In this document: one piece after another, positions 51,798 through 64,000 of the stretch
How the letters are laid out: every line of letters begins with the position of its first letter
Position numbering within the stretch: position 1 is the first letter of the stretch
Assembly: GCF_007746795.1 (NCBI RefSeq)
Contig: NZ_CP036343.1
Coordinates: forward strand, 5,369,357-5,433,356
DNA length: 64,000 bases
Origin: Gimesia algae
Lineage (GTDB): Bacteria; Planctomycetota; Planctomycetia; Planctomycetales; Planctomycetaceae
Direction of reading: 5' to 3'
Notes under the pieces: generated by a model
What the model was told of the DNA's origin: nothing
The model's database searches: none
The model's input: the letters and a program-made list of their open reading frames with translations, nothing else
Translations under genes and position numbers: made by a program

Positions 51798-51887
<90 letters not shown>

Positions 51888-51894
51888 ATTTGAT

Positions 51895-51928
51895 TGCCGT
51901 TGAGTTGTAACCCTATAACTCAGCGGCA
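51895..51928 (+). terminator. Hairpin after tRNA-Ser
   Basis: TGCCGTTGAGTT and AACTCAGCGGCA pair at 11 of 12 positions around a ten-base loop. It starts eleven bases after the tRNA and is followed by TTTACTTTAT. Confidence 0.7.
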
Positions 51929-51961
51929 TTTACTTTATCTGGACCGCTCCAGAGCTTCCCA

Positions 51962-51991
51962 TTTGTGGCACATTTTGTGGCGTTTTGTGGC
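51962..51991. repeat. Three direct copies of TTTGTGGC at the integrase gene start
   Basis: Copies lie at 51962-51969, 51974-51981 and 51984-51991, just upstream of the integrase fragment and near the tRNA. They may be arm-type binding sites of the integrase, which is inference from position. Confidence 0.4.
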
Positions 51992-52018
51992 ACGGGGGTT
52001 CTCTGAAAGGCTCTGTTG

Positions 52019-52393
52019 ATGAAGCAATCATCAAAGCAAAACCGTAAGACAACTTTCCGGATCGGCAAAGTTCGTGGCGATCTCCGCGGGAAAATCTGGT
52101 ACCTCACCTACCACGAAAATGGCAAGCGTTTGCGACCCAAAATCGGTCCGGACAAAGAACAGGCCCGGCAGATGGCCGCGCGTATCAATAGCCAGTTAGA
52201 GTCTCACACTCATTCGGTGTTCAATTTTGAACCCGTTCATATCGATGATTTGCAAACCAGATGGCTCAACCATCATGAACAGGTTTTACGATCTTCATTG
52301 CAGTCCATCGTCCCTTACAAAACCCTCTTCGTAACGAATTTTGCACGGGCTGATTCCGGAAGTTATGAAGTCAAAGAAACTTACAAAAGTTAA
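52019..52393 (+). pseudogene. Truncated tyrosine-recombinase integrase (N-terminal part only)
   Basis: About 110 residues resemble the N-terminal part of planctomycete tRNA-type integrases: KVRGDLRGKIWYLTYHENGK, EQARQMAARINSQLESH and the start of the SAM-like core-binding domain LQTRWLNHHEQVLRSSLQSI. After about position 52330 the frame runs into unrelated residues and stops. The catalytic domain (R-H-R-Y) is absent. The position right behind tRNA-Ser marks it as the scar of an integrated element. Confidence 0.75.
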
Positions 52394-54030: not shown

Positions 54031-56304
54031 CTAATCGAGCATAGTTTCTGCCTTTGGTATCTGAATTGTCAGTTTGTGAAAACGACCTGAGGAACAACCA
54101 ACAATCACAGACTTCTCATCTGAACTTATTTTTATAACTTGTGCGGTATCAGCCAGCTCATAGGTTTTGATTAGTTCTCCGTCTTGAAGGCTCCATAATC
54201 TGAGAGTATTATCCTTGGAACTGGAAATCACCTGTTTTCCATTGGAAGTCATTGCCGCAGAAGTGATATGATCAGAATGACCTTTTAGCGTTTGGACAAC
54301 TTGAAGACTTGGAAGTTCCCACAGTGATAGAGTATTGCCATCTGAGCCTGTCATCAACTTATCCCCAGAGGGACTGAATGCGACATAATTAATTCGTTCC
54401 GAGACTCCTGCATCTCCTGTATGTTTTGCTAAGTTACGAATCAATGTTCCTTTAGAAAGGCCGTTGGTAATATCCCAGACCTTCAATCCCAGAATGGAAC
54501 TGGAAATAAGATACTTTTGATTCAGAGCAATACAGGTGCTATACGATCTGTCATACGTACTAATTACCTTTCCGCTGGTGAAGTCCCATACTTTCATGGT
54601 ACGATCTGATCTCATAGTACGATCAAATGAATAGGAAATAATCTGCTTTCCATCTTCTGAAATTGCAATATTTCTAATTGGCCCTATGTGTCCGCGGAGA
54701 ATATTCACTAATTGCAATTTCCCATTGTCGTATTTCCAGATTCTAATGGTTTTATCTACATCTCCTGATACAACGTAGTTGCTGTCACGTGTGATCGTAA
54801 TGCAAGTGACTCTATCAGTATGGCCCGTAACCAATTGCAGTATTTTTTTAGTATTAAGATCCCGTAAAATAAGTGTTGAATCATTGGCAGTAATGGCGAA
54901 TTTTCCGTCTGATGCGATGGCAATACAGTTGGTCATAGTTTTTCGTTTAAAACGAGATCTTTTATTGTACTCATCAAACGTCGGCCACTCCGAACGAAAC
55001 TGCACGCGATCTTTCGGCAGCTGCTGAAAAACGGCGAGTTCGGGTTCAGGACGGCCGATCAGGCGTGCCTGCAGTTGTTCGCGTAAGGCTTCGGGATTCT
55101 TGCGGAGAACGTGCTGGGACAACTCCAGTGTGCCTTGAACCGTTTGTATGAGCGGATCTTTTTCGGTTTCGTATTCCTCAAGTAACACGTCAATGCCGAC
55201 CTGGGCCAACCTTTTTTCGATCCAGTCGGGATTCAGGTAATCTGGTTCTTCCGAAACCGGGATCATCAGGCTGTGTGTGAGGGTCTGAGGAAACCCATGC
55301 AGTTCTCGTTCCCAGTTTTGACGATCTCGGCTCAGTTTCGCCAGCAGGCTACCAACTGCAGTATCAGGCGGCAGCTTTATCTGCAGCTTCGCTAATCCGT
55401 GTTCATCTGTGATAACAGTCCCCAGTGTAATCTGCTTTTTCTCATTCTGCCTGGACTGGTAAACCAGTTCCAGCTTGACATCCTTCAGTGGTTCGCCGGG
55501 CTGTTGATCCTGGGCTTCTCCACGCACCGTAAACTGTAGCATGAGCTCGGTTGCCGGCGGTGGCTGAGGAGCCGGCTTGGGGTTAACCGAGGTTCCACTG
55601 CCTGGTGGAGGAACCTTCTGTTCCTTCTGCGTCAGACTCATTGACTTTTCCTGAGGCGGTTGAGTCTGTTCCGGATCTGGCAGAACTGTTTTCTCAGTTT
55701 CTGTTAGATTCGAAACAGCTGTCTGAGTTGGAGCGTCAGGCTCCTCTGTTGCTCCCATAAATTGAAAGCTGATCATAATGACCAGAAATAAGAGGCAGCA
55801 GCCCCCCGCGATTCCCCAGGCAGACTTGGGAACTCGAATATTGAGCTTGAATGGATCTTGTTTTGAAACTTGCTCTCGTTTTCGGAGTCTTTTTGGCGGT
55901 GATTCTGTGCGTGCCGATTTGGTGCTGCGTTTGTGTCTCTGTCTGTTTACGGAGCGCTCAGGTAGAAGGTCTTCGTCCGATTGCTCATCCCATTCTTCAG
56001 ATAAGGCAGGCTCCGGCGTAGAATGTTCAAGTTGGGCGCGCAGATCTACGTCGTATTTTTCCTTCTGTTCTGGAACCAGCAGGCAAACTCGCGCGGCAGA
56101 GAGTTCATTCAGGATCTTTTGAGATTCTTTTAGATGCTCACCGAGCGCACACTGTTGGACAAACGCCATACAGCGGTCCGCGGCTGCTTCGATGACATCA
56201 GGGTCCGCTTCAAATAAATCGATTCCCAGCAACCGATAATGATGCGGAGGTTGATCTTTGAGGGGGATCCCCAGCCATTTGTAATAAGGATCAAATTTTG
56301 TCAT
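54031..56304 (-). CDS. Membrane protein with J-like domain, one TM helix and WD40 propeller
   Basis: This is a 757-residue protein. Residues 1-90 form a J-like domain (HHYRLLGIDLFEADPDVIEA, ILNELSAARVCLL and EKYD) but the HPD motif that stimulates Hsp70 is missing. After a charged linker comes one membrane helix (163-184), then a proline-rich linker, a beta-sandwich (about 255-350), and a helical piece ALELSQHVL-type (LELSQHVLRKNPEALREQL, 393-411) like that before propellers in STAND proteins. From about 457 there are WD40 repeats (GHTDRVTCITITRDSNYVVS, GHSDHITSAAMTSNGKQVIS). The propeller is predicted to be outside the cytoplasm and the J-like part inside. It is divergent from the FHA/Hsp70 gene group. 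Confidence 0.88.
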   Translation of the reverse strand: MTKFDPYYKWLGIPLKDQPPHHYRLLGIDLFEADPDVIEAAADRCMAFVQQCALGEHLKESQKILNELSAARVCLLVPEQKEKYDVDLRAQLEHSTPEPALSEEWDEQSDEDLLPERSVNRQRHKRSTKSARTESPPKRLRKREQVSKQDPFKLNIRVPKSAWGIAGGCCLLFLVIMISFQFMGATEEPDAPTQTAVSNLTETEKTVLPDPEQTQPPQEKSMSLTQKEQKVPPPGSGTSVNPKPAPQPPPATELMLQFTVRGEAQDQQPGEPLKDVKLELVYQSRQNEKKQITLGTVITDEHGLAKLQIKLPPDTAVGSLLAKLSRDRQNWERELHGFPQTLTHSLMIPVSEEPDYLNPDWIEKRLAQVGIDVLLEEYETEKDPLIQTVQGTLELSQHVLRKNPEALREQLQARLIGRPEPELAVFQQLPKDRVQFRSEWPTFDEYNKRSRFKRKTMTNCIAIASDGKFAITANDSTLILRDLNTKKILQLVTGHTDRVTCITITRDSNYVVSGDVDKTIRIWKYDNGKLQLVNILRGHIGPIRNIAISEDGKQIISYSFDRTMRSDRTMKVWDFTSGKVISTYDRSYSTCIALNQKYLISSSILGLKVWDITNGLSKGTLIRNLAKHTGDAGVSERINYVAFSPSGDKLMTGSDGNTLSLWELPSLQVVQTLKGHSDHITSAAMTSNGKQVISSSKDNTLRLWSLQDGELIKTYELADTAQVIKISSDEKSVIVGCSSGRFHKLTIQIPKAETMLD

Positions 56305-56593
56305 GGCCCGACTTGAATGTCTGTTTCTAAATTCGTTTGCTCAAAGAATTAAAAATTGAGCCTAACTCTAACTACGTGACTGATGATCCTGTTAGTAAGT
56401 TTCATACTATTCCCATTACAGCCTCCTATCAATTGATTTTGATGTGAAATGTAACATTTGTCACCTTTTGTTATTGAGTTTGATGGTAGAAAGTAACAAC
56501 TATGTATACTGGTATTAAATTTCAAAGTATATTACGGAGTAATCTTTCGGCTAATTCACTAGCGAGCTCACACTATTTTAAAGGAGAAGTCAT

Positions 56594-58165
56594 TTGCCGG
56601 TTGTTCGTCTTTCCGATGGAGAACAAATTTCATTTACTGGAAATAAAGCAACGATTGGAAGCAATTCAAACTGCACCATTGTAATCAGGGACGATCCGCG
56701 AATTGCAAATCGACATGCAGTGATTAAGAACATTGCTGGACGGTGGCTAGTCGAATCAACATCTGAAACTCTGCTTTCTGCAAATGACTCAGAGCCAAAC
56801 CGACTCTGCTGGATCAAGTCGAATGATCAGATAAAGTTAACGCAGGATGGTCCAGAGATTGTTTTTTTTGCCGAAGAGATCTCAACTGATGATGATTCCT
56901 TGAAGCAAACAGAAACGTTACCGCCACCTGCTGCTGCTCAACAAACAGCATCGGATTCCATTCCGGATTACGATGCTGTTGTTGAACCTCAGGAAGTGAT
57001 GCCGAGAGAGGATAGTTCGCTTTTAGTTTCAACTGAACCGACAACTTCAAGCACTGTTCCCGTTGGTCTTCCACATAGTGCCGGTCCAATTACAATCAAT
57101 GTATCGGGTAATCAATCGGGAACAAACAGTCCGCTACTTTGGGTGGGTGGTGGATTGATATTTTTGATTCTAATTTTGATTATCATTTTATTTTTTATAT
57201 TCGGGTTATCACGCAGTCAACAATTGCAAGGGCCGTATAATGCTCAGGCAGTTCAACCGAATAAAAATAATGATCAGCAAGTGAATCAGACATCTGGCCT
57301 GGACAACCAGGTCACTGAAAATAATAAGTCTATTCCAGCACTACCTGTCCGAACTTCTGAATTTGATGTCAGAAAGTCGATCTACACGGTGTTTGCTCAG
57401 GAAAATAAAAGCCAGTTATTTCTCCGGATTGGGACTGCATTCGCCATCTCAAACAATCAGTTGATTACCAGTGGAAGTGTGGGGGCATTCATTGAACGAA
57501 ACAAAGAACAGTACCCCATCATCCAGGTGCATTCGACTACCAATACCGATGCTATCTTCTTAGTCAGGAAGACCTCTTTATTACCTGACTATCGCCAATT
57601 TGTTAACACATCATACGACTTAGACAGAGAAATTCGTAAGCTCCAAGAAGGGATGAATAACAGAGGGACTCCCCCCAGCAAACAAGAATTGAATCAGGCT
57701 AGCCAGAAAATGGAATCCCTCAATGATCACATGTTCCAAACGGTTGAGCAACTAATCTGTCTGGATGTTGCGATGCTCCAAGTGCAGGGGGAATTGCCGG
57801 TTCATCTGGAACTTGCGGATGAATTACCGACTCCGAATAGAGAACTCACAATCTGGGGGGTACCATTTCTACAGGAAGATGCGGAATTCATTGCAGGAGA
57901 AAGCAAGTATACCGCAAAGAGCATGAAAGGATATTTCATCCGTTTTCAAGGCTTGGAGAATAATAGCTTGAAACGTCTACTAGTAAAATGTAAGGGAGAC
58001 GATATGGCTTACAACTGGAATGGCAGCCCTTTGTTGAATTCCAGGAATAAAGTTGTCGGGCTTTACTCACGTCCTACACCAGACAAGGATTTTAATAAAC
58101 CACCGTCAGGCGAACAATGTGATGTACCCACCTTGGAACAAATTCGTAAATTAACACAATTATAG
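56594..58165 (+). CDS. FHA-domain membrane protein with degenerate trypsin-like domain
   Basis: This is a 523-residue protein. The N-terminal FHA domain (1-92) has the conserved G22-S23 (IGSNSNC) and R40-H41 (RIANRHAVI), so it should bind phosphothreonine peptides in the cytoplasm. A linker rich in S, T and P and one membrane helix (181-204) follow. The outer part (about 255-520) resembles a trypsin/HtrA fold, but TSGSVGAF replaces the NAHVV loop (His lost) and NWNGSPLLN replaces GNSGGPL. Only the Asp block (LDVAMLQV) remains. It is probably a pseudoprotease. The start is TTG 56594, decided by AAGGAG seven bases upstream. Confidence 0.85.
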   Translation: MPVVRLSDGEQISFTGNKATIGSNSNCTIVIRDDPRIANRHAVIKNIAGRWLVESTSETLLSANDSEPNRLCWIKSNDQIKLTQDGPEIVFFAEEISTDDDSLKQTETLPPPAAAQQTASDSIPDYDAVVEPQEVMPREDSSLLVSTEPTTSSTVPVGLPHSAGPITINVSGNQSGTNSPLLWVGGGLIFLILILIIILFFIFGLSRSQQLQGPYNAQAVQPNKNNDQQVNQTSGLDNQVTENNKSIPALPVRTSEFDVRKSIYTVFAQENKSQLFLRIGTAFAISNNQLITSGSVGAFIERNKEQYPIIQVHSTTNTDAIFLVRKTSLLPDYRQFVNTSYDLDREIRKLQEGMNNRGTPPSKQELNQASQKMESLNDHMFQTVEQLICLDVAMLQVQGELPVHLELADELPTPNRELTIWGVPFLQEDAEFIAGESKYTAKSMKGYFIRFQGLENNSLKRLLVKCKGDDMAYNWNGSPLLNSRNKVVGLYSRPTPDKDFNKPPSGEQCDVPTLEQIRKLTQL

Positions 58166-58243
58166 TCGCTAATATTTGTATGTTGAGCGTTTGAAAATAA
58201 TAGATCATCGATTGTTCAAATTAATCCGCAAGGAAATGAGCTC

Positions 58244-59443
58244 ATGCAGAAAATCAAAATGTTAATTATCACTGTGATGCTCTCACTATTTTTTGCAGAA
58301 CCGGCAATAACACAAACTGTGGTATATCCAAAAAGACATTGGTATTATTCATACTATCACTATAGAACTTATTCTAATCCGGTGATCATTCTTGAAAATA
58401 ATACTTATGCTCTGTCTGATTTGATTCGAGCACGAGGCGACTCTGCAGTGGACATTGCTTATGCTCGTAAGTTGCATGCACAGGCAGCTCGTATGGAGAT
58501 TGAGAACTGGGTTTTGAGACTTAAGGCCTACTATGAAGCAAAGGCAATACGTGAGGCAGAACGCCTGAAACGGGCTTACAATCATCTTGATAGTAAAAGA
58601 CTTCAAAACAATCGAAAGTGGGAACGCCTGAAAAACCATCCTGAACTTAACGGCCCGGCCATTGCAAACGGAAATGCGTTAAACTTTTTGTTATATCGTC
58701 TCTCAAATAGTGTACTCGCATATGAGTATTCTCAGAAGTCACATTCGATAGATGGCATAGAGTTAAAAAAAATGACATTGTCCCCTGAAGTTCTTCACGG
58801 GGTAATGCTCCAGCAACGCCTCACCAATGGGCGGCGAATGGTTTTTCGGGCTGATGAAGGTAAACCGCTTGATACCAACTGGTGGCCGAATGTGTTACGT
58901 GATGATTACTTTAATGATGGTCGAGAAGAGTTTGAGAAACAGCGTGACCTGGTGATCCAAGAAGCAAGTGCAGGTGGAATTTCGAGTAAATCTCTGAATG
59001 CTTTATATGTAGCATTCGAAAATATGCGGGACCGATTTAATAGTAAAAACACCAGGGATTCACGGTTTAAAGAGGGAATGGAAAGTTGGCAGCAGTATTA
59101 CCGAGCAGAAATCTTTCTGAAAAGCTTGTGGACGGAAATCTCTTTGTTGCAGTCTACAGCAGATATCGGCATCCTTGGAGCAGGTCTGAAATTTGATCCT
59201 AAAGAGGGAGAATGCAATGTGATTACGCTATTGCAATTCATCTCTCGCAATGGTCTCGACTTCGCTCCTGCCAAACCGGGCGATGAGCCTGCCTATCATC
59301 AACTTTTTAATCTAATGCGAGATCTATACGTCAATATTGCCGATGAAGACGAATCGCTTCAACCCGAAACAAAAAAATATCAGCAAATGCTGAAGCGTGA
59401 TGGTGTACCCGACGTCAGCTCGGGTTCGGTGTTGAATAAATAA
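58244..59443 (+). CDS. Exported helical protein of unknown function
   Basis: This 399-residue protein has a signal peptide (MLIITVMLSLFFAEPAITQ), a tyrosine-rich start (YYSYYHYRTYS) and a coiled-coil stretch (YARKLHAQAARMEIENWVLR, LKAYYEAKAIREAERLKRAY). The rest is mixed (LSPEVLHGVMLQQRLTNG). AGGA lies before ATG 58244. It sits between the FHA gene and the Hsp70 gene with 78 and 131 base gaps, so it likely belongs to the same transcript and is a periplasmic partner. I do not recognise a family. Confidence 0.75.
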   Translation: MQKIKMLIITVMLSLFFAEPAITQTVVYPKRHWYYSYYHYRTYSNPVIILENNTYALSDLIRARGDSAVDIAYARKLHAQAARMEIENWVLRLKAYYEAKAIREAERLKRAYNHLDSKRLQNNRKWERLKNHPELNGPAIANGNALNFLLYRLSNSVLAYEYSQKSHSIDGIELKKMTLSPEVLHGVMLQQRLTNGRRMVFRADEGKPLDTNWWPNVLRDDYFNDGREEFEKQRDLVIQEASAGGISSKSLNALYVAFENMRDRFNSKNTRDSRFKEGMESWQQYYRAEIFLKSLWTEISLLQSTADIGILGAGLKFDPKEGECNVITLLQFISRNGLDFAPAKPGDEPAYHQLFNLMRDLYVNIADEDESLQPETKKYQQMLKRDGVPDVSSGSVLNK

Positions 59444-59574
59444 CAATGCAAGCTTTCCATTAGCACAAGGGGTATTCCTGAAACTCTGTCTGGACAAACT
59501 GAATCCCAAATTGCTTCAAGGTCAGTAGAAGTCTGGACCTGGCCCCAAACATTCACTGACAATAGAAAATATCA

Positions 59575-61125
59575 ATGACTGATTCGAATAAGATTGCAGT
59601 TGGAATTGATCTGGGAACCACCTTTTCCGTTGTGGCTTATCTCAACTCCAGTGGAGTGCCGACTACCATTCCCAATACCGAGGGGGATTTGACCACTCCC
59701 AGTGTTGTGCTGTTTGATGATTCAAATGTGGTTATCGGTAAGGAAGCAGTGCGGGCAGCTCCTCTCGAAGCCGAATCGATTGCTAATCATGCCAAGCGTG
59801 AAATGGGAAACTCTCACTACTCCCGTCGGATCGCTGGCCAAAACCTTCCTCCGGAAGTCGTTCAATCACTTATTTTGGAAAAACTAAAACACGATGCCGA
59901 ATCTGTTATAGGTCCCTTCGATGATGTCGTCATTACAGTCCCTGCCTTCTTTAACGAACCACGACGTAAAGCAACTGAAGACGCTGGCAAACTGGCAGGA
60001 CTCAACGTGATTGACATCATCAACGAACCAACTGCTGCGGCAATTGCGTATGGTTTTAAAAATGAATTTCTATCTCAAGGGGGCGAGTCACAGCAGAAAG
60101 AAATAGTACTGGTTTATGATCTGGGTGGAGGTACTTTTGATGTTACTCTCATGGAAATCAATGGAAAAAACTACAATACTATTGCGACAGCGGGGGATGT
60201 ATTTCTTGGTGGAATTGACTGGGATCGCCGCATCGTTGATTTTATTGCTGAAGAATACAAAAAGAAATATCGTGGCCTAGATCCTCGTGATAACCTGGCA
60301 GGCATACACCGCTTGATGCGCGAGGCGGAAGATGCCAAGCGTGCACTTTCTGCTCGTGAGCAAACCACGATTTCCTTTGAACATGCTGGACAGGGAGTCC
60401 GTCTTTCCCTCACGCGAGAGATGTTTGAATCGCTTACAGCAGATTTACTGCGACGAACCATTTTTACAATAAGCCAAATGATTAAAGATGCTGGTTTGGA
60501 TCGCAACCAGATAACCCGATTGCTGCTAATTGGTGGTTCGAGCAGAATGCCTGTTGTCAAAAAGATGCTGGAACAGGAAACGGGGCTCAAGCCTGAGAAA
60601 TCGCTTCCTGTAGACGAGGTCGTAGCACACGGGGCAGCCATTTATGCTGGCTTGTTGCAGTCCGAGAGTATTGATATTGAACAATCGATCAAAATCAGCA
60701 ATGTCAACTCGCATAGCTTAGGGGTCCTTGCACTCGATCAACAAACGAACCGCAAAAAAAATTCAGTGATCATACCACGCAACACTCCATTACCGGTTAT
60801 TAGAGGCAAACGCTTTTTCACCGTTAAAGAAAATCAAAAACGAGTTGTCGTTAAAGTTATCGAAGGAGGAGACGCGACCGGCAAAAATGCGACTATCATT
60901 GGGAAATGTATTGTTGACAATCTACCCAAAGGCTTGCCTGCTCAATCGGAAGTTCTTATCAACTTCAGCTATGCACAAAATGGTCGCCTCACAGTTTACA
61001 CGCGACTCCCTCAAGCTGAGCGTGAAGTTCAGGTCACAATCGAGCGCGTGAGTGGCCTTGATGAGTCCGCCATGCGCGAATGGGGCCGCCGCTTGGATAA
61101 ACCTGGTGGGCTCTTCGCAAAGTAA
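59575..61125 (+). CDS. Hsp70/DnaK-like chaperone without the C-terminal lid
   Basis: This is a 516-residue protein (DnaK is about 640). The ATPase domain is complete: GIDLGTTFSVVAYL (residues 10-23), INEPTAAAIAYGF, VYDLGGGTFDVTLME and LIGGSSRMPVVKKML. A shortened substrate-binding beta part follows (VIIPRNTPLPVIRGKRFFTV), and the protein ends at GGLFAK without the helical lid and without the EEVD/EVKD-type tail. No signal peptide is visible, so it is cytoplasmic. It lies next to two proteins with J-like domains and an FHA protein, which suggests a dedicated chaperone of this cluster rather than the housekeeping DnaK. Confidence 0.92.
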   Translation: MTDSNKIAVGIDLGTTFSVVAYLNSSGVPTTIPNTEGDLTTPSVVLFDDSNVVIGKEAVRAAPLEAESIANHAKREMGNSHYSRRIAGQNLPPEVVQSLILEKLKHDAESVIGPFDDVVITVPAFFNEPRRKATEDAGKLAGLNVIDIINEPTAAAIAYGFKNEFLSQGGESQQKEIVLVYDLGGGTFDVTLMEINGKNYNTIATAGDVFLGGIDWDRRIVDFIAEEYKKKYRGLDPRDNLAGIHRLMREAEDAKRALSAREQTTISFEHAGQGVRLSLTREMFESLTADLLRRTIFTISQMIKDAGLDRNQITRLLLIGGSSRMPVVKKMLEQETGLKPEKSLPVDEVVAHGAAIYAGLLQSESIDIEQSIKISNVNSHSLGVLALDQQTNRKKNSVIIPRNTPLPVIRGKRFFTVKENQKRVVVKVIEGGDATGKNATIIGKCIVDNLPKGLPAQSEVLINFSYAQNGRLTVYTRLPQAEREVQVTIERVSGLDESAMREWGRRLDKPGGLFAK

Positions 61126-61570
61126 CCCCTCATTTTATATTTCTAAGACCAGAGATCCAAATCATATTCAGGGATGCTCGACAGGGATTCGAGCATCCAG
61201 CGGCTGGCTACTGATTTAATCACCGCATGACGACTGGTGCAGTTAGGATTGCTCTCAATCTTCGCCTTCTATCCTGAAAGGTGATTTTCATCACCCGATG
61301 GCAGTTCCACAGTTGGCAACAGACTAAACCTTTCCAATAATAGTTTATTACGATACAGTCGCCTGTCAGTCTTTATTCAACTCCCCCAGGGATAATGCAT
61401 CAAGTCTGATTACAGTTATGACAAAGTACATTCGTCTCAATTTGAACTTTAGAATTGATGGCTGGTCTTTTTATGAATAGTATGGATTCTACATACTATC
61501 AGTAAGATTACTGTATTTCATCAGAGTACCGATTTCATTCTGACAACGGGACCAATCTACAAGGCGGGCC
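61126..61570. other. Intergenic region with a 10-bp hairpin
   Basis: GGATGCTCGA (61172-61181) and TCGAGCATCC (61189-61198) make a perfect stem 46 bases after the Hsp70 stop, with no T-run behind it. It probably ends the FHA-Hsp70 transcript. The remaining 370 bases are the promoter side of the next gene. No gene is seen. Confidence 0.6.
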
Positions 61571-64000
61571 ATGGCAAAGTTTGACCCCTATTACAAATGG
61601 CTGGGCATTCCTCCCAAAGATCAACCACCAAATCATTATCGATTGCTCGGTATCGATTTATTCGAAGAAGATCCCGATGTCATTGAAGCGGCCGCCGATC
61701 GTTGTATGGCATTTGTGCAGCAGTGCGCATTGGGCGAGCATCTAAAGGCATCTCAACAGATCCTCAACGAACTCTCAGCTGCAAGAGTCTGTCTTCTGGT
61801 ATCCGAACGAAAAGAAAAATACGACACGGAATTACGTGCCAAAATAAAAACTTCTGAACCAGAGTCTGCTTTCACGGATTCATGGTCGGAAGAACTTGAT
61901 GATGATAAAATCTACGATCAAGTAATCCGCAATCAGGATTCTTCAAATCTAACACCACGCCGTATACGCAGCAGGCGAAAAAAAATAACCAGACCGAAAG
62001 CCAGACCGTTTCATACCGATCCTCGTTTCTTTTGGGGTAGTGCAGGAGTGATTGTTCTATTGCTCCTCGCCGTCACAGTTAGTTCATTACTTCCTGGGCA
62101 AAAGGCAACCTCTGAACCATTAAATCAGGTTGCTTCCTCAGATCAATCAGAATTAAATGAATCTGTACCAGAAGAACCTGCTGAGTTGCCTACACCCTCA
62201 ACAGGAAATGAGGCGCCCGTTACGTTGCCCCAATCTCCGGAGCCAGAAGACCAACCAGAGCCAGTTCAGGAACAAAAAACTGAACTCGAACCAAAAATTG
62301 CTTTACAAATTGTTCCCACATCAAACCCGAAGATGAAACCCAAGAGTGCAGTTCCTGAATCCCCACAACTGCTGATCGCCCCCTTTAATAAGCTTGAGGT
62401 GAAAAATATAAGGCAAGAATGGTCTGATTATCTCAAGCACGACAGTACTGTTACAAACAGCATTGGAATGAATCTCATCCTGATTCCCCCGGGAGAGTTT
62501 ACAATGGGGAGTTCATATTCCCCTCAGGAACTACAGAAAATACTTCTATTGGGTCCAACATTTCCCGTTTCAGTGTTAGAAGATGAGTTCCCCCCACATC
62601 AGGTACAGATCACCAAGCCATTTTATATGGGATCATACGAAGTCACGCGTGAAGAATTCAACACGCTGATCAAAGACAGTATGAATCAGGGTATGATAAA
62701 GGGACTGGAGAGAGTCAATGTAAACAGGTTTCCAGCCTGGCGAATTTCCTGGTTCGATTGTGTTATGTTTTGTAATCAACTCAGTGAAAGGGAAAAACTC
62801 CCTCCGTATTACAGTCTGAAAAATACAAAGCGCCGCTCTTTCCGTATTTCTACTGGAACAAATTCAGAGAAAACGATCAGCACCATTATTGAAGCAAATG
62901 TTTCAATTAACGGCGGATTGGGGTACCGATTGCCCAGCGAAGCTGAATGGGAATATGCCTGTCGAGCTGGCACGACTTCACTCTTCCATTTTGGCTCTAA
63001 AGTTGACACAAGTAAAAGTAACCTGACCGGGATTAGACGCCCGGCACTTGGTAAGGGAATGGATTCAAGACTTGAGACGAGATTCGAGACGAGAGTGGGT
63101 TCTTATCGACCCAATAATTTTGATCTCTATGATATGCATGGAAATGTTGGAGAATGGTGCGAAGACTGGTATGAAAAAGATTTCTATCAACAATTCGACA
63201 GTCAAAAAGCAATCGATCCCTTGGGAAAGTTAGATCAGTCAGGCACACGCGTTTTTCGAGGGGCAACCTGGGTGATTCATCATTCCGCTTTTCGAAATTC
63301 TCATGGCCCCGACTCTCATGCTAATCCAATTGGCTTCCGAGTCGTACGAACTCTCGCGGCCCCAAATGACTCCCCTGGAACTCCCCAACCGCCAGATAAA
63401 ACCGCCACACATGACCTGAAGTTCTCGGTACTTTCGGAGTCCACTAAACAACCACTGAAACAAGTCATGATTCAATTATTACTTAATAATAAGGACAACC
63501 AATCTTTACTGGGAAGTACAACTACTGACGCACAGGGACTGGGACAGATTTCAATAGCTCTTCCCACCAATGCAAAGCTGGAAAACTGCCTGGTCAAACT
63601 AACCAGTAGCGGAATTAAATGGGAAAGAAAATTAGCTGATTTTCCTGAAGAATCACCACACGCTTTCACTATACCACTCCAGGATAATGCAGAGTATCTG
63701 AACCCTGAGTGGATTGAACAACGCCTCACCTCAGTCGGCGTGGATCAAATCATTAATGAATACAGCAATAGTAACAGTCTCGATGTACAAACAGTTAAAA
63801 AAGCCCTGCAGCTCTCACGACATGTTTTACTCGATAATCCACAAGCGGTACGTGAGCAGTTACAGGCCCGGCTGATAAGCCAGAAAGAGCCGGCTTTCAC
63901 TTTATTTCAAACGCTACCTGATCAGCAGATTCAAATTCGTTCCAGTTGGCCTTCTTTTAATCAGCCAGGCGGACCACTGATACGAACGCTTGCCGGGCAT
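61571..64000 (+). CDS. Membrane protein with J-like, TM, SUMF1-fold and (incoming) WD40 domains, 3' truncated
   Basis: The frame is open from ATG 61571 to the window end (810 codons). The J-like domain (1-90, NHYRLLGIDLFEEDPDVIEA, no HPD) is almost identical to that of the gene at 54031. One membrane helix follows (154-174), then a Pro/Glu-rich linker, LLIAPFNKLEVK and a SUMF1 domain ([60 protein letters not shown]). The cysteine pair of true formylglycine-generating enzymes is missing before GFR. Then come the beta-sandwich, the LQLSRHVLLDNPQAVREQL helix and finally RTLAGH, where a WD40 propeller should start. The J-like and helix-WD40 parts duplicate the divergent gene, with a SUMF1 domain inserted. 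Confidence 0.9.
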   Translation, partial: MAKFDPYYKWLGIPPKDQPPNHYRLLGIDLFEEDPDVIEAAADRCMAFVQQCALGEHLKASQQILNELSAARVCLLVSERKEKYDTELRAKIKTSEPESAFTDSWSEELDDDKIYDQVIRNQDSSNLTPRRIRSRRKKITRPKARPFHTDPRFFWGSAGVIVLLLLAVTVSSLLPGQKATSEPLNQVASSDQSELNESVPEEPAELPTPSTGNEAPVTLPQSPEPEDQPEPVQEQKTELEPKIALQIVPTSNPKMKPKSAVPESPQLLIAPFNKLEVKNIRQEWSDYLKHDSTVTNSIGMNLILIPPGEFTMGSSYSPQELQKILLLGPTFPVSVLEDEFPPHQVQITKPFYMGSYEVTREEFNTLIKDSMNQGMIKGLERVNVNRFPAWRISWFDCVMFCNQLSEREKLPPYYSLKNTKRRSFRISTGTNSEKTISTIIEANVSINGGLGYRLPSEAEWEYACRAGTTSLFHFGSKVDTSKSNLTGIRRPALGKGMDSRLETRFETRVGSYRPNNFDLYDMHGNVGEWCEDWYEKDFYQQFDSQKAIDPLGKLDQSGTRVFRGATWVIHHSAFRNSHGPDSHANPIGFRVVRTLAAPNDSPGTPQPPDKTATHDLKFSVLSESTKQPLKQVMIQLLLNNKDNQSLLGSTTTDAQGLGQISIALPTNAKLENCLVKLTSSGIKWERKLADFPEESPHAFTIPLQDNAEYLNPEWIEQRLTSVGVDQIINEYSNSNSLDVQTVKKALQLSRHVLLDNPQAVREQLQARLISQKEPAFTLFQTLPDQQIQIRSSWPSFNQPGGPLIRTLAGH

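Follow-up and report, generated by a model that had tools for sequence, protein, structure and literature searches.

A locus of Gimesia algae appears to encode membrane receptors that operate through a dedicated Hsp70: J-like domains without the HPD motif would recruit this Hsp70 through a rebuilt contact, and the system would be tied to Ser/Thr-kinase signalling. We give this reading a probability of roughly 0.55. The evidence comes from the gene content of the locus, the conservation of an Hsp70/J-like gene pair across the phylum, the matched loss of contact residues in the two partners and fusions of either partner to protein kinases.

Gene content and genomic setting of the locus

The stretch of DNA analysed, 64,000 nucleotides in length and referred to here as the window (G000:C1:5369357-5433356), is from NZ_CP036343.1; the genome is a single contig of 7.93 Mb. 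The features of interest in the window are:

54031..56304, minus strand: J-like/TM/WD40 receptor, 757 aa (WD40 E 1.5e-32; TM aa 165-183)
56029..56304, minus strand: J-like domain (aa 1-92) of the 54031-56304 gene, placed by alignment
56594..58165, plus strand: FHA/TM/pseudotrypsin protein, 523 aa, with FHA and Trypsin_2 Pfam matches
58244..59443, plus strand: helical exported protein, 399 aa, with an N-terminal hydrophobic stretch at aa 4-22
59575..61125, plus strand: lidless Hsp70, 516 aa (PF00012 positions 1-507 of 599, E 2.8e-117)
60013..60015, plus strand: codon of D147, equivalent to DnaK R167 in alignments
60643..60645, plus strand: codon of Y357, equivalent to DnaK Q378 in alignments
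61571..64000, plus strand, gene cut by the window edge: J-like/TM/SUMF1/WD40 receptor (FGE-sulfatase E 2.2e-40)
61571..61846, plus strand: J-like domain (aa 1-92) of the 61571 gene

This five-gene layout agrees in positions and named domains with a preliminary description of the same DNA. In the genome the 61571 gene encodes 1716 aa (L008:7628-12778), and its complete product contains WD40 repeats. A third J-like gene, encoding 814 aa, lies beyond the window (L008:13223-15667). The J-like domains of the 54031-56304 and 61571 genes are 88% identical. Over their first 802 bases the two genes are 85.7% identical, and nothing matches beyond; because identity stops there, the J-like domain and membrane stretch can be regarded as a module with swappable outer parts.

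The cluster is preceded by a tRNA-Ser (51798-51885) and an integrase-like open reading frame (52016), and recombinase- and transposase-like open reading frames follow it (L008:16140 and L008:17048); the integrase-, recombinase- and transposase-like frames were named by eye. The locus is probably an additional copy of the receptor/Hsp70 set, located in a genomic island. The stretch behind the tRNA-Ser (51798-52393 of the window) recurs at other places of this genome as well as in relatives, in the manner of an island at a tRNA. Comparison with PADLOC detected no defence-system component, the matches being weak, partial and confined to six proteins.

A conserved Hsp70/J-like pair across the phylum

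The same genome encodes a second lidless Hsp70 (527 aa) at L010, followed by a 348-aa J-like protein (L010:9382-10428) with an MshEN domain (PF05157, E 4.4e-15) and C-terminal membrane stretches. MshEN is familiar from type II secretion ATPases. The J-like protein is 91% identical to a protein of a Gimesia MAG, and the typical form of this core pair is a lidless Hsp70 of about 525 aa, then a J-like membrane protein of about 350 aa.

J-like domains were present in 33 of 40 related genomes (G. algae included), and the gene neighbourhoods of all 33 were read. The core J-like gene lay directly behind a lidless Hsp70 gene, at a distance of about 500 bases or less, in 24 of them. Among named genomes the best 80 of 172 relatives were analysed. 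In 60 of these 80 loci an Hsp70 gene in the same orientation immediately precedes the J-like gene, at a spacing of -55 to 338 bases; in three of the other 20 fewer than 700 bases separate the gene start from the sequence end. In a sample of the phylum, 51 of 149 genomes matched the J-like profile at 1e-5, many of them only over the part common to ordinary DnaJ. A strong distant set was defined as genomes outside the class of G. algae with E <= 1e-8 and a match start by model position 13, which left 16 genomes and excluded one further distant genome whose match started at model position 21. The two genes were adjacent in eight of these 16, spanning five families. The link between J-like genes and Hsp70 reaches deep into the phylum.

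J-like proteins also occur in four genomes (G028, G037, G186, and G059) in which no lidless, R167-less Hsp70 was found among the matches read. The Hsp70 matches there were DnaK, an R167-bearing one (G059), and very divergent or partial ones, not all of which were read.

The J-like domain and its missing HPD

A profile built from 23 J-like domains found DnaJ chains (1bqz, E 1.3e-5; 5nro_B, E 3.4e-5), and the predicted model of the domain has its helices in the J arrangement; the label J-like is upheld by both. With the plain Pfam DnaJ model the core J-like protein scored under the cut-off, and DnaJ was absent for the window proteins among the matches listed (for the 54031-56304 gene, the best 25 of 54). 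The PDB matches also included radial spoke and mitoribosome chains, where J-like folds are structural parts.

HPD was found at its usual position in none of 155 distinct J-like domains; none had H at the first position or D at the third. The aligned positions in the window are QQC, as expected from the earlier view of these domains as HPD-less. HPD or HPE strings occurred elsewhere within the domain in eight of 178 open reading frames. Helix II of the core J-like domain is still basic. Six J-like proteins of one genome (L219-L223) have an HPD three residues later, and the Hsp70 beside them has D167.

Lid loss and changed contact residues in Hsp70

The predicted model of the window Hsp70, of middling quality (pLDDT 76.5), contains the strands of the substrate-binding beta domain (residues 382-490), then one short helix (497-508), and the protein ends at aa 516. 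The helical lid of Hsp70 (PF00012) is thus lacking in the model while the beta domain is present, which supports the preliminary designation as lidless. The 50 PDB matches listed for the protein were all Hsp70 chains or complexes containing them.

Contact residues were compared in 62 lidless Hsp70s, namely 59 of 60 adjacent ones (one shorter than 400 aa was dropped) and those of the window, L050 and L010, with DnaK numbering verified on E. coli DnaK. By alignment, R167 is replaced by D in all 62, Q378 by H in 60 and Y in two, and the linker residue L391 by T in 49 and A in ten; the window Hsp70 has D, Y, and I at these places. The catalytic residues are intact (E171, T199, and D201 in 62 of 62; K70 and D10 in 61 of 62, with one gap), and P419 is kept in all 62. 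The lidless Hsp70s therefore lack the combination of R167, Q378 and a hydrophobic linker that marks a DnaK-type Hsp70 partnered by HPD. R167 and Q378 are both present in 28 of 28 canonical planctomycete DnaKs and are retained in DnaK, HscA and HscC of E. coli.

The altered positions are those that HPD touches: in the DnaJ-DnaK structure (PMC8215388), H33 contacts L391, D35 contacts R167 and Q378, and P34 contacts P419. The DnaK change R167A is suppressed by DnaJ D35N (PMC13012618), so this residue pair can be exchanged jointly.

The distant survey yielded ten Hsp70s next to a J-like gene (nine from eight distant genomes and one from the family of G. algae). They had D in four, G in four and S in two at R167, and H in four, W in four and Y in two at Q378. 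Among 41 non-adjacent, non-canonical Hsp70s, R167 was kept in 20, lost in 20 and in a gap in one. The difference in R167 between adjacent and non-adjacent Hsp70s had a Fisher p of 0.0039 with one duplicate locus excluded, which is a guide only as the genomes are related. Since 20 of the 41 also lack R167, adjacency by itself does not account for the loss. In a tree, all 72 focal Hsp70s fell within one clade of 83 members (support 0.96), none of which has R167. The loss was therefore probably a single old event and has been kept since.

A 676-aa Hsp70 (L011:7146-9176) belongs to the same R167-less clade and has no J-like match within the 16 kb read. Three genomes of one family have two adjoining, very divergent Hsp70-like genes (L319-L321 and L327-L329), in which LLEEPQ or LIEEPQ replaces IINEPT.

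E206 and E217 are part of the acidic DnaK surface that holds helix II of the J domain. E206 is replaced by R or K in 60 of the 62 lidless Hsp70s and E217 in 59; the window Hsp70 retains E206 and has N at 217. Classical docking seems unfavourable, because the patch of the core Hsp70s has turned basic while helix II of the J-like domain is basic too. Either the binding geometry is new or the contact is located elsewhere on the Hsp70.

One open reading frame, which leaves the contig end (L333, in G121), joins a J-like domain (19-94) to a divergent Hsp70 (535-882). This fusion, the adjacency of the genes and the matched loss of HPD with R167 and Q378 agree with the earlier proposal that the J-like part belongs with Hsp70, and direct binding between the two is likely. 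The same proposal favoured a scaffold use without ATPase stimulation; we regard this and a rebuilt J-like/Hsp70 contact as equally probable.

Other J-like receptors

The first set, drawn from the window region, the remainder of the genome and its relatives, comprised 69 J-like open reading frames, of which 43 were non-core. In 39 of these 43 the 160 residues that follow the domain contain a single membrane stretch. For 39 of the 43 the stretch read, which reached at most 10 kb to either side, held no Hsp70 gene; the four with a nearby Hsp70 comprise the window cluster's three and one at L050, where a window-type Hsp70 of 513 aa is divergent to a J-like/TM/WD40 gene. Scattered homologues, which the preliminary description named as evidence against itself, were thus found for the receptors, while the core pair is conserved.

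A Pfam scan of 20 proteins (17 receptors, two core-like and one Hsp70) detected WD40, SUMF1, trypsin, 3-keto-disaccharide hydrolase, PD40, HEAT and laminin-G outer parts, and leucine-rich repeats under the curated cut-off. The J-like side of the receptors is presumably cytoplasmic, with which the positive-inside count agreed in 22 of 39 receptors, a weak signal.

The FHA-pseudoprotease and exported-protein module

The 523-aa protein matched FHA at 27.9 bits (cut-off 20.7) and Trypsin_2 at 20.1 bits, below the cut-off of 27.6. Its trypsin part was earlier called degenerate, and this proved to be a family trait, with the His and Ser stretches altered in seven of seven aligned proteins, the window protein included. 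The His-Asp-Ser triad of trypsin-like peptidases is not preserved. FHA domains read phosphothreonine with a Gly-Arg pair, a Ser and an Asn. The corresponding sites in the window are IGSNSNC, IANRH, and SETLL, in which Gly-Arg has become Gly-Ser and none of the expected Arg, Ser and Asn is present. The exported 399-aa protein matched no Pfam family, and a profile search of the PDB gave nothing below E 0.05.

At E <= 0.01, 13 of 59 genomes encode a relative of the exported protein, and eight of 59 encode a relative of the FHA protein (G. algae included in both counts); five of the other genomes matched the exported protein at 1.5e-10 or better. The two genes are neighbours in four other genomes, and similar pairs occur in L213 and L214. 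With the window counted, neither Hsp70 nor J-like genes occur in the stretch read around five of seven such loci. In L210, L213, and L214 the pair has kinase genes or an FHA-kinase gene nearby, and in L209 an Hsp70 N-terminal fragment, the FHA gene and the exported-protein gene are consecutive on one strand. The module thus adjoins the Hsp70 and J-like genes but is separable from them, and the idea that all five genes form one unit was not sustained, neither by these loci nor by the receptors that stand apart from Hsp70.

Links to protein kinases

A protein kinase and an Hsp70 are encoded in one open reading frame at L218:7387-9909 (Pfam) and at L336:3-2693, which reaches the contig end. The kinase-Hsp70 gene of L218 lies about four bases from a J-like/TM receptor gene, and a second Hsp70 with D167 is next. 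A J-like domain precedes a protein kinase in one open reading frame in L230, L231, and L232; the proteins of L230 and L231 have additional laminin-G and Ig-like parts. A kinase gene directly follows the core J-like gene in at least six of the 80 named loci (L117, L119, L121, L140, L145, and L158), a lower bound as identical proteins were entered once. In L008 the search detected no kinase next to the window locus, and the J-like genes there had no kinase match.

A link to kinase signalling was part of the preliminary description. The fusions argue for it, but the route proposed there, FHA as phosphothreonine reader, is not supported, as the residues are missing. Because kinase fusions exist, the partner bound by Hsp70 may take part in Ser/Thr-kinase signalling, and we somewhat favour a signalling output of the Hsp70.

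Proposed mechanism and alternative explanations

In the proposed system each receptor would sense the exterior with a varying outer part (WD40, SUMF1, and others), which a single membrane helix joins to a J-like domain taken as cytoplasmic. The J-like domain would recruit the dedicated lidless Hsp70 by a contact that both partners have remodelled, the HPD contacts of Hsp70 (R167, Q378, and linker L391) having presumably been replaced jointly with HPD while the ATPase residues stayed intact. The beta domain of Hsp70, by ATP-driven binding and release that the loss of the lid may make fast, would act on some protein that works with the receptor, the likeliest candidate being a Ser/Thr kinase or kinase target. 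Hsp70 would then be a signalling part more than a folding helper. That such proteins constitute a class of Planctomycetota transmembrane receptors, with the Hsp70 ATPase as output through an HPD-less J-domain and a co-rebuilt contact, parallel to or upstream of Ser/Thr kinases, is a more tentative proposal.

The separability of the FHA pair bears on whether there is a system at all. Two unrelated modules, FHA with exported protein and Hsp70 with J-like receptors, may simply lie side by side in a genomic island, as the five loci without Hsp70 or J-like genes, three of them with kinase genes near, and the mobile-element-like frames (named by eye) and tRNA-Ser around the cluster would suggest. 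We see this as possible but not the better account, since the series of Hsp70 fragment, FHA and exported-protein genes in L209 and the kinase links of both modules speak against it. It is very improbable that the island serves defence or conflict, with an effector under the control of Hsp70 and the J-like proteins: HSP70 and DnaJ are known from conflict systems (PMC7159879) and the island setting fits, but the PADLOC matches were weak, partial and limited to six proteins, no effector is recognisable, and the core pair is stable among related genomes, unlike a typical defence gene.

Two further explanations concern what the Hsp70 and J-like proteins do. Envelope quality control of the HscC-DjlB/DjlC kind, in which anchored J proteins bring Hsp70 to membrane clients, the outer WD40 and SUMF1 parts hold cargo and signalling is secondary, would be in line with E. 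coli hscC adjoining two J-protein genes, with the suggestion of membrane proteins as clients of the HscC system (review, PMC8215388) and with a similar locus, L009, in the same planctomycete. It is unlikely, however, as the window pair has lost both the J-protein motif (HPE in DjlB and DjlC) and the R167 and Q378 that HscC retains, and as the kinase fusions point elsewhere. Slightly less probable still is that the J-like domain no longer contacts Hsp70 and is a helical docking module, the operon being a relic and the Hsp70 J-independent, hence without R167. The charge-reversed dock on the core Hsp70s, the receptors without a nearby Hsp70, the J-like proteins in genomes where no lidless R167-less Hsp70 was found and the structural role of J-like folds in the mitoribosome and radial spoke matches are what one would then expect; gene order and proximity conserved across many families and the J-like/Hsp70 fusion are hard to explain by it. 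We therefore retain the receptor system with a dedicated Hsp70 as the main reading.

Comparison with known systems

The HscC-DjlB/DjlC system of E. coli resembles the window pair in having a specialised Hsp70 (HscC, 556 aa) beside its own J proteins, and differs in that HscC retains the lid with a short deletion (PMC8215388 for both). It further differs in the R167 and Q378 of HscC, the HPE of DjlB and DjlC and the lack of receptor modules; the window pair thus does not belong to the group defined by an R167 Hsp70 with HPD or HPE J proteins. L009:2012-8549 encodes an HscC-like Hsp70, two J-like proteins with KPE at the HPD place (by eye) and two 223-aa proteins, in an order that resembles ybeR-djlB-ybeU-djlC-hscC of E. 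coli.

The receptor Ser/Thr kinases of Planctomycetota, which carry WD40, TPR or SUMF1, share with the J-like receptors one TM, outer WD40 or SUMF1 parts and a cytoplasmic module (PMC11032199). Here, in contrast, the J-like domain replaces the kinase or, in L230-L232, precedes it. GTPase-centred conflict systems (HSP70, GrpE, and DnaJ-FNIII) likewise cluster an Hsp70 with a DnaJ-fused partner (PMC7159879), but a GTPase or GrpE gene was not recognised here and the J-like domain lacks HPD.

A J-like domain without HPD is also part of the membrane motor formed by Pam16/Pam18 with mitochondrial Hsp70 (PMC13254874). Pam16, however, works by binding a true J partner, Pam18. The mitochondrial Hsp70 of this motor retains R167. 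'Type IV' J-domain proteins and DnaJB13 have a J fold with altered HPD, but section 7 of PMC13254874 describes no Hsp70 with changed matching residues for them.

The constituent folds are known. That a J family lacking HPD is paired with an Hsp70 clade lacking R167 appears to be new, as do the phylum depth of this pairing and the fusions; none of these turned up in a literature search that covered few subscription papers. HPD-R167 is regarded as a near-universal switch between J protein and Hsp70 (PMC13012618), and a 2026 review (PMC13254874, section 7) describes it as 'enigmatic' whether alterations of HPD arose by accident or under selection. The present proteins form a large family in nature that has kept an HPD-less J domain together with an R167-less Hsp70 across a phylum. 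Because both losses are paired in this family, the question can be tested on one matched pair; the kinase fusions would also put Hsp70 forward as a possible component of bacterial signalling.
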